From: Hydrotalea sandarakina
Lineage (GTDB): Bacteria; Bacteroidota; Bacteroidia; Chitinophagales; Chitinophagaceae
DNA length: 64,000 nt
Assembly: GCF_003254115.1 (NCBI RefSeq)
Contig: NZ_QKZV01000004.1
Location: 186,001 to 250,000, forward strand
Direction: 5' to 3'
Notes under the pieces: model-generated
Told to the model about the DNA's origin: nothing
Seen by the model: the letters and a program-made list of their open reading frames with translations, nothing else
The model's database searches: none
Program-made: the position numbers and the translations under genes
Shown: positions 1 to 14,193 of the stretch, in pieces
Layout of the letters: each line of letters starts with the position of its first letter
Numbering within the stretch: position 1 is the first letter of the stretch

Positions 1-563
1 TGCAAACATTCTTTACCCAAATAAACTTTACCTGATTCAATGTTGGTGACTGCTTTGCCCCAAATAAATTTTACTTCTAAAAACTCGGATAAATATTGTG
101 GAATTGCAGCAATAGCTTCCCGTGGATCAACAATCATTTCTGTAGCACTATACAAACCTCCTAATAAACCGTTTTCTACTACACCTTCAAATTCTTCTAT
201 AATATCTTTTTTCCGCATTAATTCAACGGGCCGGCCGTCAGCATGAAAAGCATCATACAACTCTTCTAATACTTGCATTTCATCATCGTAATAAGCAACA
301 TGTAAACTACCCGATTCCCTGTACCATAAACCTATACTGTCCGCAACCTCTTTCCAAATAGCTTTACTGCGCAAAGCACGGTTGTATAAAGTACCCGATG
401 GCTGTCCAATTGGCCATATCATTCCAAAATTTCGAACAGAAGCTCCAACAGCTCTTTCACTTCGTTCAATTATGGTAACACTAAATCCTTTTAAACTCAA
501 TGCCCTTGCCGTAGCTAATCCTACAATGCCGGCACCAATAACAATTGCTGATTGCTTATGCAT
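1..563 (-). CDS. FAD-dependent oxidoreductase of phosphonate loci (TIGR03364/HpnW type), C-terminal part outside window
   Basis: Reading from an ATG at 563, the protein begins MHKQSAIVIGAGIVGLATA, a textbook Rossmann GxGxxG FAD-binding motif. It continues through SVRNFGMIWPIGQ and runs off the left edge after about 187 codons; DAO-family oxidases are usually about 370 residues, so roughly half is seen. The family resembles D-amino acid oxidases. TIGR03364 members are known to sit beside PhnX-like hydrolases and were proposed to deaminate oxidatively an aminophosphonate such as 1-hydroxy-2-aminoethylphosphonate or N-methylated 2-aminoethylphosphonate. The start overlaps the end of the DUF5690 gene by 8 bp, which implies translational coupling at the distal end of the phosphonate operon. 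The family call is strong from context; the exact substrate is inference. Confidence 0.85.
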   Translation of the reverse strand, partial: MHKQSAIVIGAGIVGLATARALSLKGFSVTIIERSERAVGASVRNFGMIWPIGQPSGTLYNRALRSKAIWKEVADSIGLWYRESGSLHVAYYDDEMQVLEELYDAFHADGRPVELMRKKDIIEEFEGVVENGLLGGLYSATEMIVDPREAIAAIPQYLSEFLEVKFIWGKAVTNIESGKVYLGKECL

Positions 564-1842
564 ATTGAATACTTGTTTGCGAATACTTTAATCTGAAATA
601 ATACAAAGCCATTGCCGTTCCAATAATGCCAATTACTGAAAAAACCATTACGCCCAGCCCATATAATTGCGACCATTGCATTTGTGCATTTGAAAATGTT
701 TTAACCATAATTACAGCAACACTTCCCAAGTAACCAAACGAATCGGCTACGTACATTAAAAAACCAACATTGCCGGTTTGACGATACGTGCCAATCATTC
801 TATCAAACAACATACAATTAAAAGGAATATAACCAATGTATAAGCCTAAACCAACCAGTGTTATCCAATAAACAGGAGGTAATATTTCTTGCAAAAACAA
901 CCACGAACAAATACCGGAAATTAAAAAACCGATAATAATTAAGTAATGGGTAATAAAAAATGCTTTGGCATTATTCTTAATTAGTATCATGGAACCAATG
1001 AGTAATAATACCATTAATGAAATAGGTATTTCTGTTTCAGTAAAAATAGCGGCATTTTTACCCAAGCCCATTTCGCGAAACATATCAGCGGCGAAATTGT
1101 CGCGTATATCACGAAATACCGTTAAAATAACATACACAGCAATTAGCAAAACCAAACCAACACTAAATTGCTTAAAAAAGTGTTTACGTTGTTGTTTGTC
1201 TAATACAGTTCTGATAACCCGTTGCGCTTTATCTTCATCAGTGGGGGGTGGAATTTTTTCTAATAAAAAAACCAACCCCACCATTGGTATAGCAAAAACA
1301 AGACCTGTTACAAATGGCATCCAAAGTTCATTCACATGGAATTCAACCAATAAAGTTTTTCCTACAGATTTCACAAAACCTGATGAAAAAATAAAACTAA
1401 CAGCTAAGGCTGCACCTATGAAATCGGTAGCCTTTCTGCCTTCTACAAATGAAAATACAATTCCCCATATAATTCCCAACGGAAACCCATTGATGAATAA
1501 AAAAATAATATTGTAGGGTGAAGGTGTAATTGCAAAAAATAAAAGAGCTATCCAGGCAATGGCCACCAACAACAAAATAACCTTACCACGACCTACTTGT
1601 TTTAATTCAGCAATGAATTTGATACCATAAAATTTACTAAACATGTATCCTAAAACCTGGGCAATTACTAAGGCATCTTTGTATGGCAATCCAAATACAT
1701 TGGGCATATCATGAAAAGTTCCCGCAGTAAAAGGCTTTCGGAAAGCATATACCGTTGCATACGTTAAAAATGTAATAACGGCAGCATACAAAGCCACTTT
1801 TATATCATTAATCTTTTTGTATGACAAATTCTTTAATGACAT
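556..1842 (-). CDS. DUF5690 family MFS-like membrane carrier
   Basis: This is a 428-residue polytopic membrane protein with about 12 hydrophobic segments, starting near residue 16 (VALYAAVITFLTYATVYAF). A charged central loop around residues 200-225 fits the six-plus-six layout of a major-facilitator carrier. The family is catalogued as DUF5690 with no proven substrate. It lies between the PhnX-like hydrolase (10-bp overlap at its start) and the FAD oxidase (8-bp overlap at its end), so it is almost certainly co-translated with phosphonate catabolic enzymes. I infer that it moves an aminophosphonate, or a hydrolysis product, across the inner membrane, because no phosphonate ABC transporter is visible in the operon. 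A role as a sugar-phosphate or phosphate-ester antiporter remains possible. Confidence 0.8.
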   Translation of the reverse strand: MSLKNLSYKKINDIKVALYAAVITFLTYATVYAFRKPFTAGTFHDMPNVFGLPYKDALVIAQVLGYMFSKFYGIKFIAELKQVGRGKVILLLVAIAWIALLFFAITPSPYNIIFLFINGFPLGIIWGIVFSFVEGRKATDFIGAALAVSFIFSSGFVKSVGKTLLVEFHVNELWMPFVTGLVFAIPMVGLVFLLEKIPPPTDEDKAQRVIRTVLDKQQRKHFFKQFSVGLVLLIAVYVILTVFRDIRDNFAADMFREMGLGKNAAIFTETEIPISLMVLLLIGSMILIKNNAKAFFITHYLIIIGFLISGICSWLFLQEILPPVYWITLVGLGLYIGYIPFNCMLFDRMIGTYRQTGNVGFLMYVADSFGYLGSVAVIMVKTFSNAQMQWSQLYGLGVMVFSVIGIIGTAMALYYFRLKYSQTSIQYA

Positions 1843-2516
1843 TCAATAATGGCTTTCAGTTGTTCTAAAGAGTGTATAACATAATCCGGCGAAAGCACAT
1901 TTAATTGTTCTTCACTACAAGCACCTGTTGTAATGGCTATTACCAAACCACAATCAGCATTTCTCCCTTCTAAAATATCAACTTCTGTATCACCCACTTT
2001 AGCAATATGCTTTGTATTTTGAACACCCGTTTGTTGCATAATTGCTTCAATCATATATTTAGCCGGTCTACCTTCCGGCACCTCATCACTGCATACTACA
2101 CAACTAATATAAGGATGATTAAACCAGTTTAACCTATGTAAAATAGCATTGGTAATTGGGCGAGTAAATCCGGTATCTAATGCAACTTTAATACCTAAAC
2201 CTTGCAACCATTCAAATATTTTTTCGGCATAAGGCAATGGTTGTAAAGTTGGAGTTGTTTCGTAAAAGTGTACCATTCTTTTTGTAAAATCATCATGTAT
2301 GGTATTAGCCGAATTACCGGGCAACAATGGCTTTTGATACTGTTGCAAAATAATTTCAATAGCTTCTATTTTTTTGTAGCCCATTACTTTGTCAACATCT
2401 TCCGGTGCAACAGATAATCCTGCTTTTGAAAATGCATCGCGAAACGTTTGATTAATATTTCCATTATCGGCAACTGTTGTTCCGGCTATATCAAAAACCA
2501 CTAATTCTATTGGCAT
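1833..2516 (-). CDS. PhnX-like HAD hydrolase (phosphonatase-like, TIGR03351)
   Basis: This 227-residue HAD enzyme carries the phosphonatase version of motif I, FDIAGTT with nucleophile D9, in place of the usual DxDx(T/V). The cap segment VMGYKKIEAI aligns with the PMGLLKI segment of phosphonoacetaldehyde hydrolase, so K49 matches the Schiff-base lysine and M45 the conserved Met. EGRPAKYM carries the arginine that replaces the standard HAD lysine, and KVGDTEVDILEGRNA is the acidic motif that binds Mg. The Schiff-base lysine suggests C-P cleavage of phosphonoacetaldehyde or a close aldehyde, releasing phosphate. It starts 1 bp after the PhnZ-like gene and overlaps the DUF5690 gene by 10 bp. True PhnX (TIGR01422) is longer, so I call it PhnX-like. 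Confidence 0.88.
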   Translation of the reverse strand: MPIELVVFDIAGTTVADNGNINQTFRDAFSKAGLSVAPEDVDKVMGYKKIEAIEIILQQYQKPLLPGNSANTIHDDFTKRMVHFYETTPTLQPLPYAEKIFEWLQGLGIKVALDTGFTRPITNAILHRLNWFNHPYISCVVCSDEVPEGRPAKYMIEAIMQQTGVQNTKHIAKVGDTEVDILEGRNADCGLVIAITTGACSEEQLNVLSPDYVIHSLEQLKAIIECH

Positions 2517-2517
2517 A

Positions 2518-3108
2518 TTACTGTTGTTGTGTTAAATGTTGAATAATACGTTGGTAATAAGTTGACAATGATGGCAACGGTTTATGCGTTTGCTTTGCTT
2601 GTTCGTCCCATTTACGTAAAACAATATATAATGGGAATAAAGGGTCTGCTTCAAACAAAGCGGCTTCCTCTGCTTTCATTTTCCCACCTTGAAATGCTAA
2701 GGTTTGCTTACTAGCTTCGGATAGCTGATTGTAATATTCAGGATATTTATAGGTCAGATATCTTTTTGCATTCACATGCGACTCAATCAATTTGGCAATT
2801 TTTAATGAGAATCCTTTTTCCAGCACAAAGGCTGCGCCCAGTTTTTCATGATCAACCATACCATATTTGTCCATGTGTGCGGTTGCACTTACATCATTAG
2901 GCAATACATGCTCATATAAATGCCCTACATCGTGCAAAAAAGCTGCTAATACCACATCATTGTCATAGCCTGCATCCTCGGCTAATTGTGCACATTGACA
3001 CATATGTTCTATTTGCGAAACCGGCTCTCCAATATAATCTTCGTGTCCAAATTTTTCATAAAGACCTATAATTTCCTGTGCTGTTTTTTCAATATTACCG
3101 GGTACCAT
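2518..3108 (-). CDS. PhnZ-like HD-domain oxygenase (TIGR03276)
   Basis: This HD-domain protein matches the mixed-valence di-iron oxygenase PhnZ, which cleaves (R)-1-hydroxy-2-aminoethylphosphonate to glycine and phosphate. Numbered from the chosen ATG at 3108, it shows the lid segment DYIGE (Y25, E28), H35 in QIEHM, LHDVGH (H59, D60), later H87 and H111, and D168 in RKWDEQ. These correspond in order to the PhnZ metal and substrate ligands. An earlier in-frame ATG at 3147 would overlap the upstream gene by 35 bp; the 3108 start puts Y and E at almost the PhnZ positions and leaves only 4 bp after the upstream stop. A PhnY-type hydroxylase, needed to make the substrate from 2-AEP, is not in the window. 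Confidence 0.85.
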   Translation of the reverse strand: MVPGNIEKTAQEIIGLYEKFGHEDYIGEPVSQIEHMCQCAQLAEDAGYDNDVVLAAFLHDVGHLYEHVLPNDVSATAHMDKYGMVDHEKLGAAFVLEKGFSLKIAKLIESHVNAKRYLTYKYPEYYNQLSEASKQTLAFQGGKMKAEEAALFEADPLFPLYIVLRKWDEQAKQTHKPLPSLSTYYQRIIQHLTQQQ

Positions 3109-3112
3109 ACCA

Positions 3113-4195
3113 TTAATTTTGAAACAGTTGTTGAATTGGCTTTGCAACAGGGTGATTAGCCTTAAATGTAAAACCTAAAAGTTCTGCAATAGTTGCTGCA
3201 ATTTGATCTTGGTAAATCTGCATGGGTTTTTTAATTTCTCCCTCAGGAGTTATATCGGGCCCCATTACCGCCATCCATATTTGTGAAGATTCGGGAATAC
3301 GGGTACCATGACTGCGCCAATTTTCTTTATTGACATCACCTCGACCATGATCGCAGGTTACTATTAAGGTAGTTTTGTTTTTATATTTCGGGTTACTTTG
3401 AATATAATTCCACAAATCGTGTATCATAGCATCTTCAGCATGTGCACTCTTCAAATATTGATCATATAAACCACCATGTGCAAAATCATCGGTTTCATCA
3501 AATGCAATGTATAATACTCGTGGTGCATAAGCTTTCATGTACTCACGAGCAGCAGTATAGGTAAATATATCAGGACGAACATTTAAAGGTTGTGCTGTTA
3601 AAAACTGCATATCATTAATTAATGATAAAGCGGCATTGTTAAAATGCAAAGTATCTGTATCTGCGTTTACAAATATTCCGCTTTCCCATTTATTTAAGAT
3701 GTAAGGAAACACATCCCAGGTAGTAAAGGCAGCCACTTTTCCCGTAAAACCTTTTTGTTTATTTAAAAAACCCAATACATTTTCATTTTTGTTTTTTATT
3801 TTATCATTCGAATTAACAGCAGTATCGGGATAACCGGTAAATATTTCATTATATCCGGGGTAAGAAAAATTATATGGGTTGGCAACATTCATATCGTTTT
3901 CATACAAACGATTGCCATACAAACGACCATGTTGCTGTACGATAGACCATAAAAAAGGAAATAATTTGGCTCTACTTGCTTCAGGTGTTGGGGCTGTAAA
4001 TTTTTCAGCAATAAAACTGCTGTCGCGGGTAAATTCTTTGTTGGCTAATAATGCTGCATCAACCCCTTTAAAAACTTCTTGCCAACGCATACCATCTAAT
4101 GTAACAATTACTACGTTTTCTGTTTTATGTTGTGCATGTAGTTTATTTTGGGTAAATACGATTGCTACAACAAGAAATAACATTATTTTTTTCAT
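3113..4195 (-). CDS. secreted alkaline-phosphatase-superfamily hydrolase (sulfatase/phosphodiesterase-like)
   Basis: A signal peptide (MKKIMLFLVVAIVF, ending near HAQ at 20-22) precedes an alkaline-phosphatase-superfamily core. The first metal-binding strand is VVIVTLDGMRWQEVF (Asp about residue 34). A segment APTPEASRAKLFPFLW follows, and the C-terminal metal site is TLIVTCDHGRGD with a later His in RSHGTR. The superfamily hydrolyses phosphate, phosphonate or sulfate esters with two divalent metals. The protein should act in the periplasm or at the cell surface. It sits 23 bp after the GDPD and 4 bp before the PhnZ-like gene. The context suggests release of phosphonate or phosphate from an ester before uptake; substrate and nucleophile cannot be fixed from sequence alone. 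Confidence 0.8.
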   Translation of the reverse strand: MKKIMLFLVVAIVFTQNKLHAQHKTENVVIVTLDGMRWQEVFKGVDAALLANKEFTRDSSFIAEKFTAPTPEASRAKLFPFLWSIVQQHGRLYGNRLYENDMNVANPYNFSYPGYNEIFTGYPDTAVNSNDKIKNKNENVLGFLNKQKGFTGKVAAFTTWDVFPYILNKWESGIFVNADTDTLHFNNAALSLINDMQFLTAQPLNVRPDIFTYTAAREYMKAYAPRVLYIAFDETDDFAHGGLYDQYLKSAHAEDAMIHDLWNYIQSNPKYKNKTTLIVTCDHGRGDVNKENWRSHGTRIPESSQIWMAVMGPDITPEGEIKKPMQIYQDQIAATIAELLGFTFKANHPVAKPIQQLFQN

Positions 4196-4218
4196 AAATT
4201 TATTTTGCTGTTTTGAAA

Positions 4219-5049
4219 TTAGTTCATTTTGTTAGTTCTTACATATTTTTTTAAATAGCTAATTAACTGCTCGGGTTTATCTGTTTGCAAGCCATTAACA
4301 CCCATTTTCAAGTACTTATTCCAAATATTTTCATTTTCATTAGCGCTTTCTACATCTAACCAAACTTTTATACCCAATTGTTGGGCTATTTTAATTAGTT
4401 TGGGTTGATATAAATTATCAACAACCGCTAGTTTTGTGTCAGAAAAAAATTGTGCAAGCTTATCTTCGGATAAATACGATTCCGGAACACTGGTTATAAT
4501 GGGTATTTGTGGAGCCATTTGTTGCCATTGCTTATATTGTTGAATATTATTGGGATACACAATAACTTGATGTTGCATGCCGTTTTTTTGTATTTGTTCC
4601 CACACTTTTTTAACCGATGCCATTTTAAAATCAAGGTAGATATTTATTTTGTTCTTACACAATTGCAACACTTCTTCTAAAGTTGGTATCTGATATTGCT
4701 TGCCATCAAGTGATTTTACAGATAAATTTTTTAGTTCATCATACATCAATGCATTAACGTTACCTATTCCATTTGTAGTTCTATTAACAGTAACATCATG
4801 CATTAATATGGGAACACTATCCTTTGTTTCTCTAACATCTATTTCAACATAGGCAGCACCTGCTTCAATGGCCGCTTTAATGGCCGCCAATGTGTTTTCA
4901 GGATAAACAGTATGATTACCTCTGTGTGCAATTACTACAAAAGCATTGGAGGAATGAGGCAAAACCCCATTCCCCTGCTGTGCATCAACTGAAACTGAAC
5001 ATAAACAAGTAAGCCAAAAAATTAGAATAAATACACAATGCTTTTGCAT
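4219..5049 (-). CDS. secreted glycerophosphodiester phosphodiesterase (GDPD)
   Basis: The 276-residue protein starts with a signal peptide (MQKHCVFILIFWLTCLCSVS, with VDAQ as the likely cleavage region). The TIM-barrel GDPD signature is complete: VIAHRG with H42 and R43, PENTLAA with E51, YVEIDV with E69 and D71, and the second catalytic His in ILMHD at about 84. The C-terminal GVNGLQTDKPEQL is also typical. The family hydrolyses glycerophosphodiesters to glycerol-3-phosphate and an alcohol. Placed directly after SusD (13-bp gap) in a phosphonate operon, it may open glycerophospho- or glycerophosphono-esters derived from lipids. The enzymatic call is firm; the phosphonolipid link is inference. 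Confidence 0.92.
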   Translation of the reverse strand: MQKHCVFILIFWLTCLCSVSVDAQQGNGVLPHSSNAFVVIAHRGNHTVYPENTLAAIKAAIEAGAAYVEIDVRETKDSVPILMHDVTVNRTTNGIGNVNALMYDELKNLSVKSLDGKQYQIPTLEEVLQLCKNKINIYLDFKMASVKKVWEQIQKNGMQHQVIVYPNNIQQYKQWQQMAPQIPIITSVPESYLSEDKLAQFFSDTKLAVVDNLYQPKLIKIAQQLGIKVWLDVESANENENIWNKYLKMGVNGLQTDKPEQLISYLKKYVRTNKMN

Positions 5050-5062
5050 AATGCAAACTTTA

Positions 5063-6673
5063 TTATTTTAACAACCATATTTTCTGGTTAAGATCATCTG
5101 CACTGAATTGCTGATTTTGTAATGCGGCATTCCAATTAGCTGCATTCTGTGCTTGTTCGGAAACGGGATAAGCCCAACGAATAGGAATTACACCATTATT
5201 TCCAACACCACTTCCACCCTGAAAAGCAGGCACACCTGTTCTTCTCCAATTGTAATAAGCCTCATAGCCTGAATTTTGAAACATAGCTATATATTTTTGT
5301 AAAACGATTTGCTGGATGGCCATAACCGGATTGGTTGACAATTGCACTGCTGTTTGAGCATAGTAGCTATTAAAATTAAAGCTTACCGGATAAGGGGTTA
5401 CTTGTGTAGTTGATGTTTTGCCGGGAGGCAAGAAATATGCCGTAAAACCGGGCTGTGTCACATCTATTCCATAAAACTTCATCGATTCAATGATACCGGT
5501 TTTGTAAAAGTTTTCAGCATTACCTGAAATCCATCCTCTTTCAATTCCTTCAGCAATATTGAAGCATTGCTCTTTATAACCAACTATAACATCGGGTTCA
5601 CCAACAAAAGTGGAATAATATCTTTTCCTGTTAGGGAAAGAATATAAATTGGCAGAAGCATTACCATACATTATAGATAATGGCAAACCTGTACTGGCAC
5701 CAACAAAGTATTGAAATTTAGCAGGCTGCAAAGTATCGCTTCCTACTAATGCCCAAGCCGGTTCACAGGTTACAAAAACACGAGGGTCGTTAATTGAAGT
5801 TAATGCACTTACATAAGTACTTGCCATGTTATTGCGTTGGGCAATAGAACCAAAGTTTGTTGGGTTAAATGGATACTGTAAGTAAGTAGCATCGTACTGA
5901 GCTGCCATATCATCTGCCTGACTTGTAAATAATGGATATTTTGACGGATTATTCACAATATTGGCAAATTGTGCAGGCACATTCAATGTAGCATCATTGG
6001 CTTTATTGCTTAGTTGTATTAACACCCTAAGCTTAAATGCATTCACTGCTTTTTGCCATTTAGTTAAGTTACCTTGATAAAACAAATCTTGCGATGCTAA
6101 TAATGATTGGTCGTTATTAGCTATTAATGCAGCAAAATGTGTATTAGCCGTATCTAATTGGTTCAATACGTATGCAAAAACCTGTTGTTGTGGTGTATAT
6201 GACGGTGTAGGATTGCCGGAACCCAATAAAGCTTGAGTTAATGGCACATCACCAAACAACATCGTTAAATTATAAAAATAATAAGCACGAATAAATCTTC
6301 CTACCGCTTCATAAGGATTAACAGCACCTGCACCCTTAGCAGTGGCTTCATGCTCCATTTGTACTACATTTTTCAACACTAAATAAGGATCAAACGAACC
6401 ATTGGTCCATGAGTAAATATTATTGCCATAATAATCGTAGTTATTACAGAAATACTGGTTCCAATTTTGCACATTATTCCAAGAGCTTAGCCCGCCAAGC
6501 GTGCCATAACTGCCATTACCGGCCACTGCTGTTAATACATTTCCCAGTATTAAGCCGGGAGGAACATTTGTAGGTCTATTTGGGTCGGCTTGCAAATCAT
6601 CAATTTTTTTTGAGCATGATGCCAGCATTAGAATACCAACCAGTATAATAGCTATATTTTTAAGATGTTTCAT
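5063..6673 (-). CDS. SusD/RagB-like outer-membrane lipoprotein (SusD-like_2)
   Basis: A lipoprotein signal, MKHLKNIAIILVGILMLASC, gives a lipidated Cys just before SKKIDDLQADPNRP, a classic SusD-like N-terminus. The rest is an alpha-helical TPR-rich substrate-binding protein of about 536 residues, with the C-terminal YYNWRRTGVPAF segment typical of the SusD-like_2 group. SusD proteins cap the SusC channel and bind the nutrient at the cell surface. An alternative ATG at 6691 overlaps the SusC stop (TAATG) and would add six residues. I prefer 6673, which gives a standard lipoprotein signal and a 17-bp gap. The downstream genes suggest the ligand is an organophosphonate or phosphodiester and not a simple glycan. 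Confidence 0.93.
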   Translation of the reverse strand: MKHLKNIAIILVGILMLASCSKKIDDLQADPNRPTNVPPGLILGNVLTAVAGNGSYGTLGGLSSWNNVQNWNQYFCNNYDYYGNNIYSWTNGSFDPYLVLKNVVQMEHEATAKGAGAVNPYEAVGRFIRAYYFYNLTMLFGDVPLTQALLGSGNPTPSYTPQQQVFAYVLNQLDTANTHFAALIANNDQSLLASQDLFYQGNLTKWQKAVNAFKLRVLIQLSNKANDATLNVPAQFANIVNNPSKYPLFTSQADDMAAQYDATYLQYPFNPTNFGSIAQRNNMASTYVSALTSINDPRVFVTCEPAWALVGSDTLQPAKFQYFVGASTGLPLSIMYGNASANLYSFPNRKRYYSTFVGEPDVIVGYKEQCFNIAEGIERGWISGNAENFYKTGIIESMKFYGIDVTQPGFTAYFLPPGKTSTTQVTPYPVSFNFNSYYAQTAVQLSTNPVMAIQQIVLQKYIAMFQNSGYEAYYNWRRTGVPAFQGGSGVGNNGVIPIRWAYPVSEQAQNAANWNAALQNQQFSADDLNQKIWLLK

Positions 6674-6690
6674 ACTGAATATTTTTAACA

Positions 6691-9600
6691 TTAAAATGAT
6701 AGGTTTAAGTTAAACCCATAACTGCGGGTTGTTGGAGTTTGAAGGCCTGATCCGCTGTCTTGTGTATATTGATCAACATCCAAATCCTTATAACGATTGG
6801 GGAAAAAGTATAATAAATTTCTACCCACCAGTGAAACACTTGCACCGCGTATAAAAGCAGTTGACTTTAATTTGTTCACCGGAATATTATAAGTAATGAC
6901 CACTTCGCGCAGCTTAGCATATGTTTTCTTTATAATATCTAAATCAGGTATAGAAGCCATGCGTGTTACAAAAGGTTGCACCTGACTTTTAGTTGTATTT
7001 GTTGTTTCGGTTAATGATTTCATGTTCGTAATTTGCCCGGTAATGGGATCAAGATTAATAGGTGCGCCTGTTAAGTTTACACCTTGCCCGGTATAAGCTG
7101 CAATGTTTGCTTCATCAAAAGGCCTTGCTGCACCAAAAGCTCCGGTTGCGCTTTCAATATGGCGACCACCTTGCAATGTTTTTTTACGAACATAATCTTC
7201 CATTACACCGCCCACCATACCATCGAACTGAAAACGAAGTGCAAAATTTTTATAACTGAAAGTGTTAATAGCTGCCCAAATGAAATCCGGATCAGAATGG
7301 CCATAAATTTTTTGTGCGGATGATCCTAAATCAGAAAATCTTAAATACAATCCTGATGCCGGGTCAATGACCATTTTTCCATCGGGTGTACGCACAAAGG
7401 CATTACCGTAAACAAGATCAACACGTGTACCATTTTTTGAATAATTATTGGGATTGGAATTGTTTACCCATTTTCTAACGTAAGTGGAAACATTGGCTGT
7501 TACATGCCAACTAAATCCGTTAGCATTGCTTATTGGGTTTGCATTCATGGTAAATTCCCAGCCATCATTGGTATAAGTATTACCATTGGTTAAAAAGCTG
7601 GAATAACCCGATGCAGATGATGTTCCCTGATTAACAATTCCGGTATTTAAATAGTGGTAATGCGTAATGTCTATACCCAGTTTATTGTCTAAGAAACGAA
7701 TATCCATGCCAAACTCGGTAGCTTTTCTTTCTGCAGTTTGAATATTAGCACTGACAGTTTGATTCGTATAACTGGCACTGTTGGTAAATTGATTGGTGAA
7801 TGTTGGACTTAAAGTATAAACCTGAGCGAATTGATAACTAGGCCCATTATAAGGCGACATCCAATTATATCCGTAGCCGGCAGCCGGTGTTCCGCTTATA
7901 TCTGGTGTAAAAAAGGCATTTGTTCCTCCACTCTTACTTTCAGCATAAGATGCACGTAATTTTAAAAAGCTAATGGCATGTGGCAAATGCAAATAATCGG
8001 ATAATACTGAAGCCACATTGAATGAAGGATAAAAATAACTATTGTTATTGGCCGGTAATGCGCTTGACTTATCTACCCGTCCGGTAACGTTGGCAATTAA
8101 ATAAGATTTATAACCTAAATCAACAGAATAATATGCACTTAACACCTTCATGGAAGAACGGAAAGTGCTGCCCGTTAGTGGGTATAAAGAATTGGAAAAT
8201 GCGTAAATACCCGGAACATTTAAATAGTTGGTTGAGGTAAAATTCGAATTGAAATTAAAACTACGTACTGTTCCTCCGCCTAGCGCTTCCATATCTAACC
8301 ATCCAAACAAACTTTTTTTATACCTAACCTGACCATCTACATAAGAATCAAAGAGAGATCTTCTGTCTTCTCTGTAATCACCCATACGTAATTCACGACC
8401 ATAAGCACCTGCAGAATAAGGCATTTTTTCATAATTGAACATATCATAAGTTGATATACTTGGCCTTAATTGAAATTCCAAATTAGAAGTTGGCTTATAA
8501 TTCAATGACACATATCCATACACGTTATTTTGATAATGACCTCTCAACCATTCATATGACATGAAATAAGGGTTGTTATAGCGATAATACTCTTCATATT
8601 TCTGCTGTATTCCAGCTAATCCGGGTTGCCAGTAATTACGCATATCGCTCATAGCCCAATCAGCACCGCCCCAAAGAATAATATTATAAATTATACTATT
8701 AGGTCCATACTGTACATCAGGAATATTTGGAGTGGATTGGCGGCTGTAATTAATGTAACTGCTTAAAGTAAGTTTGGGATTAAAGCGTTGCGTTACATTT
8801 CCTGTTACATTAAAATTATTCAACTGTGTATTCGGTACAATTCCTTTTTGATAAGTATTACCAAATGAAAAACGAACATCGGTTTTTTCAGTTGAAGAAG
8901 ATAATGATATACTATTTGTTGAAAGTAATCCCGCTTGTATAAACTTTCTTAAATTATCTTTTCCGCGTGCTATCCAAGGAGTAGGTTGCACATGGCCAAT
9001 ATAAGTTGATCCGTCAGCAAAAGTGGTAGTATAAGTTTGTGATGGATCATATTTACCATCGTATTGAGGTAATAATTGCCCCTTGAACTGTGGACCCCAA
9101 ACATCATAATCATAATCGTTTACGCCAACACCAATTGCGCCGGTACCTCTATAATTGGCGGGTCCTGAACCACCACCTCCAAAAGCATATTTACCATTAT
9201 CACCGGGACCATATAAATCTTGATATTTAGGTAATGCTATAAATCCTTTATTGATTTGAGTACTGGAATTAAAATCAACATGCAGCCCTTTACTTTTAGC
9301 GCCTTTCTTGGTAGTTATAATAATGGCTCCATTCTTTCCCTGAAAACCATACAAAGATGCAGCATTAGGTCCTTTTAATATGGTAATGGTTTCAATATCA
9401 TCGGGATTAATATTATAAGTATCCGACGTAAATGGCACACCGTCAACCACATAAATAGGTTGATCGTTAGCACCATTTTCCCCGCGAACAATAATTCCCG
9501 GTGAATGGCCAATTTCTGAATTGATATTGATGGTTAAACCTGCTGCATTTCCTTTCAAAGCGTTGATGGGGTCGGCCTCACGGGCTTTGGTTAATTTAGT

Positions 9601-10002
9601 TGCATCAATGGTTTGCACTGCATAGCCTAAACGCTTCGATTCTTTTTTAATACCTGTTGCTGTAACCACTACTGCACTTAAATCGGCATTTTGAGGGTTT
9701 AATGCCACCGCAACATTTTCTGCATTGTGAACAACCAGTCGCTTACTTTCAAAGCCAACATAGGTAAACTCAAGTACATCATTTTTTTCAACAGAAATAC
9801 TAAAATCACCATTTGCATTGGTAGTTGTACCTCTATTGGTTTTTTTAACGGCAATAGAAACACCTTCAATAGGGGCTTGCGTTACAGCATCTACCACACG
9901 CCCTTTTAGCACAATTGCTTGTGCCTGAACGGAAGCAGTTGCCAATAAGCCTACTGCTAATAATAACAGAAGCTTAAATAGATTGGGGAGAATTTGCTTC
10001 AT
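6691..10002 (-). CDS. SusC/RagA-family TonB-dependent outer-membrane transporter
   Basis: This 1103-residue protein has a signal peptide (LLLLLAVGLLATASVQAQA), a carboxypeptidase-regulatory-like beta-sandwich (residues about 30-110, LKGRVVDAVTQAPIEGVSI), and a TonB plug. The SusC signature DDIETITILKGPNAASLYG is followed by a long beta-barrel ending in the aromatic YGFNLNLSF. It imports large nutrients using TonB energy, in complex with the adjacent SusD. The start is the ATG at 10002; a TTG six bases upstream is less likely. A TAnnTTTG box lies at 10020-10027. As the first gene of a run that ends in C-P bond cleavage enzymes, it is the probable uptake gate for the operon's substrate. Confidence 0.96.
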   Translation of the reverse strand: MKQILPNLFKLLLLLAVGLLATASVQAQAIVLKGRVVDAVTQAPIEGVSIAVKKTNRGTTTNANGDFSISVEKNDVLEFTYVGFESKRLVVHNAENVAVALNPQNADLSAVVVTATGIKKESKRLGYAVQTIDATKLTKAREADPINALKGNAAGLTININSEIGHSPGIIVRGENGANDQPIYVVDGVPFTSDTYNINPDDIETITILKGPNAASLYGFQGKNGAIIITTKKGAKSKGLHVDFNSSTQINKGFIALPKYQDLYGPGDNGKYAFGGGGSGPANYRGTGAIGVGVNDYDYDVWGPQFKGQLLPQYDGKYDPSQTYTTTFADGSTYIGHVQPTPWIARGKDNLRKFIQAGLLSTNSISLSSSTEKTDVRFSFGNTYQKGIVPNTQLNNFNVTGNVTQRFNPKLTLSSYINYSRQSTPNIPDVQYGPNSIIYNIILWGGADWAMSDMRNYWQPGLAGIQQKYEEYYRYNNPYFMSYEWLRGHYQNNVYGYVSLNYKPTSNLEFQLRPSISTYDMFNYEKMPYSAGAYGRELRMGDYREDRRSLFDSYVDGQVRYKKSLFGWLDMEALGGGTVRSFNFNSNFTSTNYLNVPGIYAFSNSLYPLTGSTFRSSMKVLSAYYSVDLGYKSYLIANVTGRVDKSSALPANNNSYFYPSFNVASVLSDYLHLPHAISFLKLRASYAESKSGGTNAFFTPDISGTPAAGYGYNWMSPYNGPSYQFAQVYTLSPTFTNQFTNSASYTNQTVSANIQTAERKATEFGMDIRFLDNKLGIDITHYHYLNTGIVNQGTSSASGYSSFLTNGNTYTNDGWEFTMNANPISNANGFSWHVTANVSTYVRKWVNNSNPNNYSKNGTRVDLVYGNAFVRTPDGKMVIDPASGLYLRFSDLGSSAQKIYGHSDPDFIWAAINTFSYKNFALRFQFDGMVGGVMEDYVRKKTLQGGRHIESATGAFGAARPFDEANIAAYTGQGVNLTGAPINLDPITGQITNMKSLTETTNTTKSQVQPFVTRMASIPDLDIIKKTYAKLREVVITYNIPVNKLKSTAFIRGASVSLVGRNLLYFFPNRYKDLDVDQYTQDSGSGLQTPTTRSYGFNLNLSF

Positions 10003-10019
10003 AAACAATTATTTTGAAG

Positions 10020-10027
10020 CAAAACTA
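10020..10027 (-). promoter_or_regulatory. Bacteroidota -7 box upstream of susC-like gene
   Basis: The minus strand reads TAGTTTTG, an exact match to the Bacteroidota -7 consensus TAnnTTTG, 17 bp upstream of the SusC ATG. No convincing -33 TTG element is seen at the usual 19-21 bp spacing, so the promoter may need an activator. Confidence 0.5.
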
Positions 10028-10104
10028 TCCGGCCAGTGTTACGGAATTATTGCGCAAAGATTAACAAATGGTAAAGCAATAGTTAACAAAATGAGTAATA
10101 AAAG

Positions 10105-10124
10105 AATATTTGTTTACAAATATT
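10105..10124. promoter_or_regulatory. perfect 9-bp inverted repeat, operator candidate
   Basis: The arms AATATTTGT and ACAAATATT are exact reverse complements separated by TT. The site lies in the 155-bp gap between the XRE-cupin regulator and the SusC-like gene, about 78 bp upstream of the -7 box. Copies of GTTAACA surround it. An operator for the adjacent regulator is the simplest reading. Confidence 0.4.
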
Positions 10125-10157
10125 AAACTTTTATGAAAAAATTGTTAACAGAATTCC

Positions 10158-10742
10158 TCAATCATTATTGTGAGGTTGAAAAAAATAAACTACCAACAAA
10201 ACAGCATCAGTAGTTCCTGTATTTTCCGGATTATGCCATTCATTCGCATCAAAAAATAAGGAATCACCGGCTTCCATTTCATAAACTTCTTCGCCAATAG
10301 TATAGCGTAAGTTTCCTTGCAATAAATATTTAAATTCAAATGCTCGGGTTATAACCGGTTCGCGTTTGGCATTGGGTGTAATGCGTAATAAAACAAAATC
10401 TAAATGATATTCTTCAAATGTGGTAGTAAAAATGCGCTGGTAATAAAAACCTTCCGCATTTTCTTTTTCAAATTTCTGATAGTCGTTCTTTTTTTTAAAT
10501 ACAACTTTACTTCCGCTTTGTTGCAGATTTATATTTTTAAAAAAATCATTCAAATCAATTTCCAAGCCTTTAATTAAATTAAGCAGTACATTTAAAGATG
10601 GAATTGTTCGGCTGTTTTCAACCTGGCTAAGCATACTTTTAGTAATACCTGCCTTATCAGCTAGTTCCTGAAGTGTAATATTTTTGTCTTTCCGAATTTC
10701 TTTCAAGCGGTTGCTTATTTGTATAATAATATCTTCCTGCAT
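10158..10742 (-). CDS. XRE-family transcriptional regulator with C-terminal cupin
   Basis: This 194-residue protein has an N-terminal helix-turn-helix (residues about 8-65) of the XRE/SinR type, with ELADKAGITKSMLSQVEN as the recognition region. The C-terminal cupin (about 115-190) contains MEAGDSLFFDANEWHNPENTG. Such XRE-cupin proteins sense small ligands through the cupin and control adjacent catabolic genes. It is on the same strand as, and 155 bp upstream of, the SusC-like gene, with a palindrome between them. I infer that it is the local regulator of the phosphonate operon, sensing an aminophosphonate or its product. It also lies divergently from the cysteine/YHS cluster and could in principle act there. 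Confidence 0.9.
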   Translation of the reverse strand: MQEDIIIQISNRLKEIRKDKNITLQELADKAGITKSMLSQVENSRTIPSLNVLLNLIKGLEIDLNDFFKNINLQQSGSKVVFKKKNDYQKFEKENAEGFYYQRIFTTTFEEYHLDFVLLRITPNAKREPVITRAFEFKYLLQGNLRYTIGEEVYEMEAGDSLFFDANEWHNPENTGTTDAVLLVVYFFQPHNND

Positions 10743-10857
10743 AAAAATTCATTGGGTTGTAATATACATTCGCAAAAGCAAATTATGGAACATTCCAAAA
10801 AGCTTAACCTCTTATTAAAATATGCTTATGCGCATATTATTTTGTTTTTAGAGTAGC

Positions 10858-10865
10858 TACTTTTG
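10858..10865 (+). promoter_or_regulatory. -7 box (TAnnTTTG) for the cysteine/YHS cluster
   Basis: TACTTTTG matches the Bacteroidota -7 consensus and ends 9 bp before the ATG at 10875, which predicts a very short leader. No well-spaced -33 element was found. Confidence 0.4.
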
Positions 10866-10874
10866 CAAAACAAT

Positions 10875-11252
10875 ATGTTAAAAAAGCTGGTTATATTACT
10901 CATGTTGGCCGGAATTGGCGGGGAAACTTTTCAAACCAATTTTATTGAATTGTATTACCGACTCAATACTGCTGCAATAACCCAACAATATTGTATTAAT
11001 AAAGATAAACCGCAAATGCATTGCAATGGCCAATGCCATTTAGCTAAACAATTAAAAAAAGCAACCCAACCCGAAAGCTCAAATTCAAGCAACAGTAAAA
11101 GCTTCAAATTAATAGATTTATTTGCAAATACTTACAATGGTTATACCTACACTTCTTTGCAAGTACATCAAAAATATTATATCGTAAAAAGTGCTTTCAT
11201 TCCTACCGGTTACTATAATCTCTGCTTTCATCCCCCCACCATTTATGCATAA
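10875..11252 (+). CDS. small secreted cysteine-motif protein, probable metal-related
   Basis: This protein of about 125 residues starts with a hydrophobic leader (MLKKLVILLMLAGIGGETFQ). It carries a cysteine cluster, QQYCINKDKPQMHCNGQCHLAKQL, with C40, C50 and C54. A variant of this N-terminal motif (C-x-NxDKPxMxCNGxCxLxKQL) recurs in small Bacteroidota proteins next to metal-handling genes, by my recollection. No catalytic domain is recognised. The ATG at 10875 is preferred over a TTG at 10863. The gene is followed by an outer-membrane protein with a cysteine-rich mature N-terminus and a YHS lipoprotein, so copper or another soft metal is a reasonable guess; the function is unproven. Confidence 0.7.
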   Translation: MLKKLVILLMLAGIGGETFQTNFIELYYRLNTAAITQQYCINKDKPQMHCNGQCHLAKQLKKATQPESSNSSNSKSFKLIDLFANTYNGYTYTSLQVHQKYYIVKSAFIPTGYYNLCFHPPTIYA

Positions 11253-11336
11253 TTTTTAAAATGTAAAGTTTTCTGCGCGGTAGTTTTCAATTACTGTAGC
11301 AAACCTGTATTCACATATTATATTTAAAATAAATTT

Positions 11337-12248
11337 ATGCATAAAAAAATATACCTTACACTTGTATTATTAAGTGTAACCTATATCACATTTGCCTGTG
11401 CTATTTGCGGCTGCGGTGGCAGTAATTTTTACCTTGGTTTAATGCCTCATTTCAGAACAAAATTTATCGGCATTCGGTACGACTATAGTAATTACAATAC
11501 TGTATTAGCCAACGACCCAACACAATTCAGTCATAATTACTATAATTCAATACAATTATGGGGTGGTTTAAATATTGCCAAGCGTTGGCAATTATTGTAC
11601 ATAGTGCCCTTTCATTTAAACAAACAAATAGATGATGATGGCATTACCAACCAAAACGGCTTGGGCGATGCTTCGGTAATGGCGAATTATTTATTGTTTC
11701 ATAAAACAAAAACTTACGAACACAAAGCAGGCATTGAACAACAGCTTTGGGTAGGCGGAGGTGTAAAATTACCCACAGGGAAAATGAATTTGAATCTCAA
11801 AGATCCCAACATTACCGTTGCCGATGTAAATGCACAATTAGGCACAGGTAGTATTGATTTTATTATGAATACTATGTATAATATACGCATTGGCAATTGG
11901 GGCATCAATACCTCATTAATGTATAAAATAAATACTGCTAAAAATGGCTACATATTTGGCAATAAATTTACCGGTAGTACTATTGGTTATTACAATATTG
12001 CCATGAAGCAAATAAACATTATGCCTAATGCCGGAATGATGTATGAAGATGTAGCTGCCAATAAATTAGATGGTACAAGCATTTCAGCAACCGGTGGCCA
12101 TATTGCCAGTATAATTTCAGGAGTTGAGGTTGGCATTAAAAAAATAAATGTTGGAATTAGTGCAATGGCACCATTTAACCAATATTATGCTATGGGGCAA
12201 ACAAAATTAAATTGGCGCGGTAATGTACATGTAAGTTTTAGTTTTTAA
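11337..12248 (+). CDS. outer-membrane beta-barrel protein with CxxCxCGG mature N-terminus
   Basis: A signal sequence (MHKKIYLTLVLLSVTYITFA) is followed directly by CAICGCGGSN, so the mature protein may start at C21, with C24 and C26 close by. The remainder, about 270 residues, alternates short hydrophobic and aromatic strands (IRYDYSNYN, QLWGGLNIAKRWQLLYIVPF) and ends in HVSFSF, the terminal aromatic signature of outer-membrane barrels. It resembles proteins loosely labelled 'transporter' in Bacteroidota. The three cysteines at the exported N-terminus suggest metal capture. It lies 84 bp after the cysteine-motif gene and 14 bp before the YHS lipoprotein. Confidence 0.75.
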   Translation: MHKKIYLTLVLLSVTYITFACAICGCGGSNFYLGLMPHFRTKFIGIRYDYSNYNTVLANDPTQFSHNYYNSIQLWGGLNIAKRWQLLYIVPFHLNKQIDDDGITNQNGLGDASVMANYLLFHKTKTYEHKAGIEQQLWVGGGVKLPTGKMNLNLKDPNITVADVNAQLGTGSIDFIMNTMYNIRIGNWGINTSLMYKINTAKNGYIFGNKFTGSTIGYYNIAMKQINIMPNAGMMYEDVAANKLDGTSISATGGHIASIISGVEVGIKKINVGISAMAPFNQYYAMGQTKLNWRGNVHVSFSF

Positions 12249-12262
12249 CTTTACACAAAACC

Positions 12263-12583
12263 ATGTATATGAAGCAAATTATCGTATCGGCATCAGCCCT
12301 GCTTATTTTAGCAGCCTGTGCCGGCAACAGTAACAAAACGGATGCAAAAAAAGATAGCACCGCAACCACTAGTGCCCCAATGGCTATGCAGGCAAAATTT
12401 ACTGCTGATATGGTTGATAATCAACGCGACCCTTCATGTGGTATGCCCGCAAAAGCCGGGTTAGAAGATACCATTCACTATAAAGGTTATGTAATTGGCT
12501 TTTGTAGCAAAGAATGTAAAGATGAGTTTTTAAAAGACCCCGAAAAGGGTTTAACTGCAGCCGATTTAAAAAAGAAGCAATAA
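12263..12583 (+). CDS. YHS-domain lipoprotein
   Basis: This 106-residue protein has a lipoprotein signal whose lipobox LAAC places the modified cysteine at residue 19. A low-complexity linker follows, then a YHS-type metal-binding domain: NQRDPSCGMPAK supplies one cysteine and GFCSKECKDEFL two more. YHS domains occur in copper and other heavy-metal handling proteins. A second ATG at 12269 gives the same mature protein. It is the last gene of the three-gene unit, which ends at a strong palindromic terminator. The domain call is firm; the metal is not known. Confidence 0.88.
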   Translation: MYMKQIIVSASALLILAACAGNSNKTDAKKDSTATTSAPMAMQAKFTADMVDNQRDPSCGMPAKAGLEDTIHYKGYVIGFCSKECKDEFLKDPEKGLTAADLKKKQ

Positions 12584-12585
12584 CT

Positions 12586-12617
12586 AAAAAGCCGCTTTAA
12601 ATTTAAAGCGGCTTTTT
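12586..12617. terminator. bidirectional palindromic terminator
   Basis: A perfect 22-bp palindrome (12591-12612, half-site GCCGCTTTAAA) is flanked by A5 and T5, so it can end transcription both ways. It separates the convergent YHS gene and FGGY kinase gene. The last codons and stop of the kinase lie inside the stem. Confidence 0.9.
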
Positions 12618-14051
12618 AATAAGTTCTAATTGACCTAAAATTCGCTGATATCTCATCCAAACTTCTTGGTAGAGTTGATGCGTAGTAACATTAGGTTCAT
12701 AAGTAATGATGTTATTTGAATTCACATCTAATTGTGCATTGATTGCCTTAGCACCAATTATAGCTGCACCTAATGCCGAGGTTTCAATAGTATTGGGCAA
12801 TATAACTTTCATATTGGTTATATCTGCCAACATTTGAACCCAGATGGTGCTTTCAGCAAAACCGCCACCGGCAAATAGGGTATATTCAGTATTATCATCC
12901 GTAATCAACTGCTTTATGATGGCATAAACATTTAGCAAAACACCTTCCATAACAGCTTTCATACAATGCGCTTGTGTGTGTTGCCGAGTTAAACCAACAA
13001 AAGCTGCGGTGGCTTCAGCATTCCATAAGGGTGCACGTTCCCCGGCTATATAAGGCAACACAACCAACCCATCACTGCCGGGTTCAATATTTACCGTTTC
13101 ATTGAACAAATTTTCAAAACTGCTATTGGTTTTTAAAATCTCATTTTTAAACCATTGTATTACACTAGCACCATTATTGGAAGCTCCTCCCATAACATAG
13201 GATTGTTGATGCAAAAAATAACAAAAAGTTTGAGCAGATGCATTTAATATGGGTTGATGAATAGTGCGCCTTGCAGCAGCACTGGTACCAATTGTAACGG
13301 CAATTTGATGTGGCGCTGACACACCCATGCCCAAGTTGGCTAATGGACCATCGCCACCACCAATTACTAATGGAACCTTACTTATCCAATCAGGTAATAA
13401 TGTATGAGTTCCATGAAATACTGTTTCCGGTGCAACAATGGTACTGAGTTGTTGTTCACTAATTTGAAGTTTATTCAATAGGTTAGTTTCCCATTGTAAC
13501 TTGTGAATATTACACAAACCCGTTGCCGTTGCTATAGATGTATCAATTACATACTGTTGTGTTAGTGCAAAAAATACATATTCCTTCAAACTGATAAACT
13601 TTGCCGCCTTATTAAAAAGTTTGGGTTCATTTTTTTGCAACCATAAAATTTTACAAGCAGGTGTCATGGCATGTACCGGCACACCTGTAATTGTATAAAA
13701 TTCAGCAGCGCTTTTATTTTGGTACAATTCCTCAGCTTCAGCATTAGCTCGGGTATCATTCCATAAAATACAATTTGTTAGTGCATTTCCATCCGCATCC
13801 ATCACAATTAAACCATGCAAAGCTGCACTAAAGCTTATACACATGGGGGGGTGTTGCAAATAAGCTGTTACAGCATTTATACATTCAATTACCGCTAATA
13901 AAATAGTGTATGGTTCTTGTTCGGCATAACCGGCTTGGGGTTGAAGGGTTGTATTATTAACAGAATAACGATATAGCATTTCTGCTGAACCGGAAAAAGC
14001 CACTGCTTTTACCGATGTAGTACCCATATCAATAGCCAAAAAATAGCCCAT
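12603..14051 (-). CDS. FGGY-family carbohydrate kinase, probable gluconokinase
   Basis: This 482-residue cytosolic kinase has the N-terminal phosphate loop YFLAIDMGTTSVKAV. Its substrate region, SFSAALHGLIVMDADGNALT followed by NCILWNDTRA, resembles FGGY gluconokinases more than xylulokinases. GGGFAESTIWVQMLADI is the C-terminal ATP-site signature. It phosphorylates a sugar acid or sugar with ATP. A GntP-type gluconate permease is encoded at 27108-28421, which supports gluconate, although the two are not adjacent. The gene appears monocistronic, with terminators on both sides. Xylulose or another sugar cannot be excluded. Confidence 0.85.
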   Translation of the reverse strand: MGYFLAIDMGTTSVKAVAFSGSAEMLYRYSVNNTTLQPQAGYAEQEPYTILLAVIECINAVTAYLQHPPMCISFSAALHGLIVMDADGNALTNCILWNDTRANAEAEELYQNKSAAEFYTITGVPVHAMTPACKILWLQKNEPKLFNKAAKFISLKEYVFFALTQQYVIDTSIATATGLCNIHKLQWETNLLNKLQISEQQLSTIVAPETVFHGTHTLLPDWISKVPLVIGGGDGPLANLGMGVSAPHQIAVTIGTSAAARRTIHQPILNASAQTFCYFLHQQSYVMGGASNNGASVIQWFKNEILKTNSSFENLFNETVNIEPGSDGLVVLPYIAGERAPLWNAEATAAFVGLTRQHTQAHCMKAVMEGVLLNVYAIIKQLITDDNTEYTLFAGGGFAESTIWVQMLADITNMKVILPNTIETSALGAAIIGAKAINAQLDVNSNNIITYEPNVTTHQLYQEVWMRYQRILGQLELIKKPL

Positions 14052-14140
14052 AGTATCTGCTGCTTATAGTAAAAGTGAAAATAAAATAGGAACAAGTTAC
14101 AGGATATATTTTTTTTTGCAACAACAAAACTTATAAAAAA

Positions 14141-14166
14141 CAAAAAGCGCCAAATGAATGGCGCCT
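14141..14166 (-). terminator. terminator downstream of the GH20 gene
   Basis: On the minus strand the arms GGCGC and GCGCC (plus strand 14147-14151 and 14160-14164) enclose an 8-nt loop and are followed by TTTTTG. Confidence 0.7.
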
Positions 14167-14193
14167 TTGTTGGTTTGGATGGTTGGTGATAAG

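Follow-up and report, generated by a model that had tools for sequence, protein, structure and literature searches.

The usual role of SusC/SusD (SusCD) pairs is in the handling of glycans, and TonB-energised import is established for the family. Described uptake systems for 2-aminoethylphosphonate (AEP), namely AepXVW, AepP and AepSTU, are inner-membrane transporters of free AEP (PMC8316502, available text), and much bacterial phosphonate synthesis leads to cell-surface decoration (PMC6697681, available text). The operon described here is a variant of a kind mentioned for Flavobacterium in 2020, in which SusCD is clustered with enzymes of phosphonate degradation; the available part of that text does not name the genes. 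The present operon lies at the start of a 64,000-nucleotide stretch of Hydrotalea sandarakina contig NZ_QKZV01000004.1 (positions 186,001 to 250,000; hereafter, the window), where eight packed genes, all on the minus strand behind an XRE-cupin gene, encode SusC, SusD, a GDPD-family enzyme, an alkaline-phosphatase-superfamily (AP-superfamily) enzyme, a PhnZ-like protein, a PhnX-like protein, a DUF5690 protein and an FAD oxidase. We conclude, with a probability of roughly 0.7, that this is a SusCD-type locus for phosphonate utilisation, importing a phosphonate-bearing ester.

Related loci were collected with the PhnZ-like gene as anchor, from a phylum sample of 395 Bacteroidota genomes and from a scan of named genomes. 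Of the 505 relatives in that scan, the best 80 were taken as loci, and 53 of these were at least 18 kb long. Forty random 20-kb stretches from 12 PhnZ-positive genomes, with round coordinates chosen manually, served as controls. Genes were labelled by phmmer, a SusD being found only if similar to the queries used; several named loci are short contigs, and absences there carry little weight. Records L021 and L116 are one locus; the phosphoesterase count excludes L116 (96 unique loci), whereas both are included in the counts of adjacent pairs, of palindrome occurrence across loci and of PhnA loci. The PhnZ-like gene was present in 17 of the 395 phylum-sample genomes, and 16 of these 17 loci contained an adjacent SusC-SusD pair; in the sole exception (G253), a SusCD pair lies on another contig. 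An adjacent pair was likewise present in 42 of the 53 long named loci (from the best 80 of 505), with SusC in 45. No random stretch contained an adjacent pair, and any SusC was found in 6/40. Fisher tests against the controls gave p values of 2e-16 and 8e-12 for the two samplings, which overstate independence because the loci are related by descent. Co-occurrence of SusCD with phosphonate genes across Bacteroidota, set as a check by an earlier note made from the letters of this DNA, was thus observed twice.

The same association was seen from the side of SusD. The phylum SusD search, the second-lineage SusD search and a family-level search each scored the first three to seven candidates per genome. 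SusD of the window type (E 1e-80) occurred in 15 of the 395 genomes, 14 of which are PhnZ-positive. In 195 genomes of the same family, SusD was found in 55, the PhnZ-like gene in 53 and both in 41 (p 1.5e-19), and in 36 of the 41 the two genes lie no more than 15 kb apart on one contig. Because no control stretch held a pair and SusD and the PhnZ-like gene are co-distributed, a chance neighbourhood of SusCD and phosphonate genes was rejected. The recurrence of the same partnership in many relatives suggests dedicated feeding on large phosphonate-bearing molecules.

Relatives of the XRE-cupin protein were labelled in 9/17 phylum-sample loci and in 31/80 named loci (best 80 of 505), but in 0/40 random stretches; this protein is likely a ligand-sensing regulator of the operon. 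A palindrome, GTTTA-N7-TAAAC, was first noticed on all 47 XRE-cupin loci, then re-derived on 16 of them and tested on the other 31. The window locus is absent from the 47, since its record (L019) stops short of the XRE gene. In the derivation set the palindrome was the commonest dyad (7/16 loci), and in the hold-out set it was present in 24/31 loci, whereas 200 dinucleotide shuffles gave 0.12 on average and 3 at most. Overall, it was found in 35/47 XRE-cupin phosphonate loci, 5/59 phosphonate loci without a labelled XRE-cupin gene and 1/40 random stretches. It lies within 250 bases before SusC in 20 loci and before a catabolic gene in 13; in nine loci it precedes both SusC and a catabolic transcript, with the strands divergent. 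The 64-kb window contains a single exact copy, between the regulator and SusC. The palindrome is therefore by its own placement a candidate tie between SusC and the catabolic genes (phnX/DUF5690/FAD), even where these form divergent transcripts, and we infer that the XRE-cupin protein binds it.

SusC scored above the cut-offs of TIGR04056 (460.6 bits, cut-off 368.25) and TIGR04057 (48.2 bits, cut-off 46.2), and the adjacent SusD matched SusD-like_2, PF12771 (218.3 bits, cut-off 27, E 2.2e-64) and carries a lipobox-like LASCSKK; the two thus qualify as an import pair. Since glycans are the usual cargo of such pairs, SusCD could import a glycan for carbon, the phosphonate genes being chance neighbours or serving to strip the glycan's phosphonate decoration. 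A GH30 gene and a GDSL esterase gene are indeed found further downstream of the operon, the PF01663 enzymes in related loci (L092, L094, L095) end in a lectin-like, PA14 or chitobiase domain, and phosphonates in bacteria chiefly decorate surfaces (PMC6697681, available text). However, a scan of nine window proteins at E 0.001 revealed no glycoside hydrolase family and no other carbohydrate-active enzyme, the GH30 lying outside, beyond a DUF6588 gene; the extra enzymes beside SusD in other loci were phosphoesterases among the selected genes scanned; and the association of SusCD with phosphonate genes holds against the random stretches. We regard such a glycan locus as very improbable. A simple polysaccharide utilisation locus was rejected, as the scan of the nine proteins revealed no carbohydrate-active enzyme in the operon.

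The two genes that follow SusD encode putative phosphoesterases. The GDPD protein matched PF03009 (129.5 bits, cut-off 23.6, E 2.9e-37); its N-terminus is hydrophobic as judged by eye, and its export is thus putative. The AP-superfamily enzyme matched PF01663 (32.8 bits, cut-off 23) but no solved sequence at E 0.001, and its model was therefore compared by fold. PafA was nearest (Z 28.1), followed by SPAP, a sulfatase and NPPs (about Z 24.5); the phosphonate monoester hydrolase 2W8S reached Z 23.8. The predicted fold places the enzyme in the superfamily but, with the rows lying close together, does not set its specific substrate. Residues D34, S111, D236, H240, D282, H283 and H296 were invariant in 12 sequences; their catalytic roles are presumed from NPP motifs.

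Phosphoesterases of usually exported families recur beside SusCD elsewhere. At least one was present in 52 of 68 unique loci with both SusC and SusD, versus 0/40 random stretches, export in other loci being assumed from the family. AP-superfamily enzymes were found in 38 of the 68 loci, the PF04185 propeller type in 16, GDPD in 13 and others in fewer, so that of the two window enzymes GDPD is the less constant and the AP-superfamily enzyme the more constant periplasmic type. The labelled gene starting within 300 bases after SusD was AP-superfamily in 27 cases, PhnZ-like in 12, propeller type in 10 and GDPD in three; a TonB receptor (two), a metallophosphoesterase (one) and PhoD (one) also occurred there. 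The presence of phosphoesterases in 52/68 SusCD loci suggests that the imported ligand is a phosphonate ester. All but one of the nine loci in which the FAD gene adjoins a phospholipase C type enzyme (by Pfam on the L151 copy) are titled Mucilaginibacter. By the chemistry of its family, phospholipase C cleaving a phosphonolipid would free AEP directly, and by analogy the enzyme of Mucilaginibacter-type loci would release AEP in this way. A protein of about 420-440 amino acids also recurs in phosphonate loci (L102, L104, L109, L114, L115, L119 and L088); except in L119 it lies between SusD and the AP-superfamily gene, and the only family match of the L088 copy is a sub-threshold metallo-beta-lactamase.

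The catabolic half of the operon was examined by family, structure and residue comparisons. The best family of the PhnZ-like protein is TIGR03276 (204.8 bits, under the cut-off of 214.6), and its best solved relative is PhnZ (4MLM, E 1.7e-66), with TmpB (6NPA, E 2.4e-54) next. Residues H48, H72, D73, H76, H100, H124, D181, Y38 and E41, which we take to be ligand and active-site positions, did not vary among 17 sequences and are matched in the alignment with 4MLM. The protein thus has the H..HD..H..H..D pattern and the Tyr/Glu pair of a PhnZ-type mixed-valent diiron oxygenase, the ligand motif being named in PMC11203657 (available text). Pocket residues gave no decision between PhnZ and TmpB specificity, the Tyr and Glu being common to both. 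For the PhnX-like protein the best solved relative is PhnX (2IOF, E 1.9e-34), and K49, invariant in 18/18 sequences, falls in the alignment on the Lys in the MGLLK stretch of PhnX, presumably the Schiff-base Lys. The full FAD enzyme (L019) passed the TIGR03364 cut-off (418.9 bits, cut-off 285.1). PbfD1, which carries the TIGR03364 annotation, forms phosphonoacetaldehyde by oxidising N-methyl-AEP and, to a lesser degree, AEP (PMC10590968, available text). A search of the window's genome for PhnW gave three matches, all of them weak and below the TIGR02326 cut-off.

Loci with PhnA bear on the intermediate of this pathway. None of the five contained a PhnX-like gene, compared with 71/92 other loci (p 0.001; some loci are short), and four of the five contained a PhnY-type dehydrogenase. 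PhnA and the PhnY-type dehydrogenase act on phosphonoacetate and phosphonoacetaldehyde, respectively. In L033, PhnW, PhnY and PhnA are over their equivalog cut-offs; L112 combines a TIGR03364 oxidase with PhnA (over cut-off) and with a PhnY-type dehydrogenase truncated by the contig end (best model TIGR03250, 510 bits, under its 635.65); L106 contains the oxidase and PhnA together with a dehydrogenase labelled by similarity only. Since PhnA is present where the PhnX-like gene is absent, both routes meet at phosphonoacetaldehyde, pointing, as far as gene content can, to this intermediate and to substrates of the aminoethylphosphonate type.

A different order of reactions was also considered, in which the FAD enzyme and the PhnZ-like protein would work in a single pathway for hydroxylated aminophosphonates (e.g., 1-hydroxy-AEP), and the substrate of the PhnX-like enzyme would be some unusual aldehyde instead of phosphonoacetaldehyde. 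The three genes recur together with no PhnW over cut-off in this genome, the PhnX-like protein differs from PhnX at the His past the Lys, and the available text of PMC11203657 describes what PhnHD and HpnW do as an open question. The replacement of the PhnX-like gene by PhnA, with the substrates named above, speaks against such a scheme, as does the product of PbfD, which is phosphonoacetaldehyde (PMC10590968, available text), and we consider it improbable. The catabolic half is, judging from the family matches, well placed as an AEP-type pathway via phosphonoacetaldehyde with a PhnZ-type branch.

DUF5690 matched PF18943 (536.9 bits, cut-off 25). Its model (pLDDT 90.5) aligned with SLC37A4 (Z 31.8, 3.2 A over 362 residues), as expected of a major facilitator superfamily (MFS) fold; other MFS families were within 1-2 Z units of SLC37A4, and GlpT (1PW4) gave Z 27.2. 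Membership in the GlpT family was not shown: there was no match to solved chains at E 10, and hhalign with GlpT gave a non-significant E of 0.051 (probability 1 percent) over a stretch that includes RKxF and SKF. Eighteen DUF5690 loci, a subset of those listed, were fetched from places without a PhnZ-like gene. Eight contained a PhnX-like gene and/or the FAD enzyme, two only a PhnW-like aminotransferase, and eight none of these; the last eight also contained no SusC or SusD in the stretch. DUF5690 is thus ruled out as a phosphonate-only marker. In three of the outside loci (L086, L088, L092), DUF5690, the PhnX-like gene and the FAD enzyme lie beside SusCD; in three others (L094, L095, L096), XRE-cupin, DUF5690, FAD oxidase and PhnX-like genes lie beside a large protein, which in L094 was scanned and is a single TonB receptor, those of L095 and L096 being likened to it by size and place. 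L094 and L095 also encode a PF01663 enzyme with a laminin-G domain. On the modelled fold, DUF5690 is proposed to be the phosphonate permease of these loci. No paper on DUF5690 was found in the open-licence literature.

Several observations weigh against a phosphonate utilisation locus led by SusCD. Eleven of the 53 long loci have no adjacent pair (three have SusC at the edge, two a TonB receptor only, one a weak TonB match and five no gene of this sort), 12 of the 53 PhnZ-like genomes of the family lack a window-type SusD, and 16 of the 68 SusCD loci have no phosphoesterase by the queries used. The PhnX-like protein stays under the cut-off of its best family, TIGR03351 (191.1 bits, cut-off 218.9), does not reach that of TIGR01422 (115.1 bits, cut-off 220) and lacks the His found three residues past the Lys in PhnX, and 21 loci have neither a PhnX-like gene nor PhnA in the sampled stretch. 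By family scan, the operon contains no PhnY*-type 2-oxoglutarate hydroxylase partner; elsewhere in the genome there is a single PhyH match, on a different contig, and no NCBIfam model recognises it at E 1e-10. Genome-wide, GTTTA-N7-TAAAC is not enriched (16 sites, and 16 for the reversed control pattern); the motif therefore counts by position only, and no regulon is claimed. Finally, 14 of the 55 SusD-positive genomes of the family have no PhnZ-like gene, and in G007 a same-lineage SusC-SusD-AP-superfamily trio (L081, G007:C2:1017501-1037500, positions 8160-14213) has no labelled phosphonate gene in 20 kb; it is possibly a phosphate-ester counterpart of the operon.

The last two points also favour a more general organophosphorus locus, whose SusCD and exported phosphoesterases would import and cleave phosphate esters such as phospholipid head groups or teichoic-type polymers, the phosphonate genes being a cassette for one of several contents. 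The fold comparison agrees with this, PafA and then the NPPs being nearest to the AP-superfamily model, as does a SusD relative of a second lineage that stands beside a PhoD-like enzyme with no phosphonate genes (L242). But 14 of the 15 SusD-positive genomes of the phylum sample are PhnZ-positive, the candidate operator is shared by SusC and the phnX/DUF5690/FAD transcripts, and phosphonate loci account for 42/44 and 28/43 rows in the two lineages of the SusD tree. These rows were gathered mostly via PhnZ and long branches were flagged, so the tree serves only to show two lineages. The five best matches of the second lineage (L022 type), the query itself among them, all belong to phosphonate loci. 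Four genomes rank next; two of them were inspected, and both are without phosphonate genes in 20 kb. We judge the general organophosphorus locus unlikely, though it deserves to be kept in mind.

Beyond the phosphonate loci, the second-lineage SusCD of L242 and the PhoD-like enzyme that follows it lie at 8202-14128, with no labelled phosphonate genes in 20 kb. Related SusCD pairs in L244 and L245 adjoin, as judged by eye, apparent ABC importer and nucleoside hydrolase genes, and are perhaps another non-glycan SusCD nutrient locus.

Taken together, the operon is real and its parts are conserved as a set, with evidence in the sequences for joint control. That SusCD imports bound phosphonates is the likeliest interpretation of these data. 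In the phosphonate utilisation locus that we favour, the XRE-cupin protein would sense a pathway compound and control the operon via GTTTA-N7-TAAAC. SusD would bind a phosphonate-bearing ester whose size or low concentration puts it beyond the reach of porins, for example part of a phosphonolipid or of a phosphonoglycan, and SusC would import it with TonB-derived energy. Once it has reached the periplasm, GDPD and the AP-superfamily enzyme would cut the ester bond to yield AEP, N-methyl-AEP or 1-hydroxy-AEP, and the predicted MFS carrier DUF5690 would move the free phosphonate into the cytoplasm. There, the FAD oxidase, like PbfD elsewhere, would convert AEP or N-methyl-AEP to phosphonoacetaldehyde, which the PhnX-like enzyme would split, as its relatives do, into acetaldehyde and phosphate. 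The PhnZ-like oxygenase, again by its relatives, would convert 1-hydroxylated AEP to glycine and phosphate.

The features are collected in Table 1. Coordinates and family matches bear out the eight packed same-strand genes behind XRE-cupin that the earlier note described. Its assignment of the last four genes to phosphonate families stands by best match for the PhnZ-like, PhnX-like and FAD genes, although two of the four catabolic names (TIGR03276 and TIGR03351) are best but sub-threshold matches; it fails for DUF5690, given the eight of 18 outside loci without phosphonate genes. Its reading as a phosphonate locus is likewise upheld in that SusCD belongs to the catabolic locus (by co-occurrence, co-distribution and the shared candidate operator), but not in treating DUF5690 as specific to phosphonates. 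The FAD oxidase gene runs about 570 bases past the window start (L019:9430-10563); after a gap of about 170 bases, the DUF6588, GH30 and GDSL esterase genes follow (L019 6084-9261). An Rfam search of window positions 1-12000 matched no RNA element.

Table 1. Features of the operon, in window coordinates.
Feature	Position	Strand	Remarks
XRE-cupin transcriptional regulator	10158..10742	-	194 aa; HTH_3 and Cupin_2; 149 bases before the SusC open reading frame
Candidate operator GTTTA-N7-TAAAC	10112..10128	.	Palindrome; about 110 bases before the SusC ATG (10002)
SusC/RagA TonB-dependent outer-membrane channel	6691..10008	-	Open reading frame from TTG 10008; ATG at 10002
SusD-like surface lipoprotein	5063..6691	-	PF12771 type; 1-base overlap with SusC
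GDPD-family enzyme	4219..5049	-	Gap of 13 after SusD; probably exported
Alkaline-phosphatase-superfamily enzyme	3113..4195	-	Gap of 23 after GDPD; probably exported; candidate phosphate- or phosphonate-ester hydrolase
PhnZ-like HD-domain diiron oxygenase	2518..3147	-	From TTG (35-base overlap); ATG 3108 (4-base gap) is the more plausible start
PhnX-like HAD hydrolase	1833..2516	-	Gap of 1 after PhnZ-like; candidate phosphonoacetaldehyde hydrolase
DUF5690 inner-membrane protein	556..1842	-	10-base overlap with PhnX-like; MFS fold (model); proposed phosphonate permease
TIGR03364 (PbfD-type) FAD amine oxidase, N-terminal part	1..563	-	8-base overlap with DUF5690

The SusCD-led locus provides a specific and testable path by which bound phosphonates could be mineralised. 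It also gives DUF5690 a likely function in this setting and provides a candidate regulator-operator pair, while the five PhnA loci without a PhnX-like gene amount to a natural experiment that puts phosphonoacetaldehyde at the pathway centre. More tentatively, and at somewhat less than even odds, we propose that SusCD phosphonate loci are widespread in Bacteroidota, comprise at least two SusCD lineages, take up intact phosphonate-ester macromolecules (phosphonolipids or phosphonoglycans), and combine locus-specific exported phosphoesterases, including phospholipase C, with DUF5690 as an aminophosphonate permease and an XRE-cupin regulator with a dedicated GTTTA-N7-TAAAC operator; if true, this would add a TonB-driven outer-membrane route for phosphonates.

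A search of the open-licence literature for papers combining Bacteroidota, SusCD, phosphonate and TonB-dependent found none, in a wording that misses 'Bacteroidetes' papers such as PMC8115612; titles and abstract starts in that literature likewise included none describing this gene set, which is no proof of novelty. The operon has SusCD, exported hydrolases, an inner-membrane carrier and a local regulator in common with polysaccharide utilisation loci, but phosphoesterases and C-P cleaving enzymes in place of glycoside hydrolases. Closer to it are the PusCD phosphate utilisation systems of Flavobacterium, which are also SusCD-led with periplasmic phosphoesterases (PMC8115612, available text); the window operon conforms to their pattern of SusCD co-localised with phosphoesterases, as GDPD and the AP-superfamily gene directly follow SusD. 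PusCD was, however, described under Pi depletion, and the available main text contains no phn genes, phosphonoacet- compounds or DUF5690. AEP clusters with PbfD and PhnX share with the window a TIGR03364-type FAD oxidase and a phosphonatase, often without PhnW, but the available text (PMC10590968) says nothing of SusCD, DUF5690 or exported esterases. AepP is, as DUF5690 is predicted to be, a major-facilitator carrier, in its case for AEP, but is related to GlpT by sequence (PMC8316502, available text), whereas DUF5690 has no significant GlpT match. The Achromobacter hpnW, phnX, phnSTU, phnHD cluster likewise combines TIGR03364, a phosphonatase and TIGR03276 without PhnW, and relies on LysR and PhnSTU transport (PMC11203657, available text) where the window operon has XRE-cupin, DUF5690 and SusCD. 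By analogy, SusCD, DUF5690 and XRE-cupin would be the Bacteroidota solution for a similar catabolic trio.

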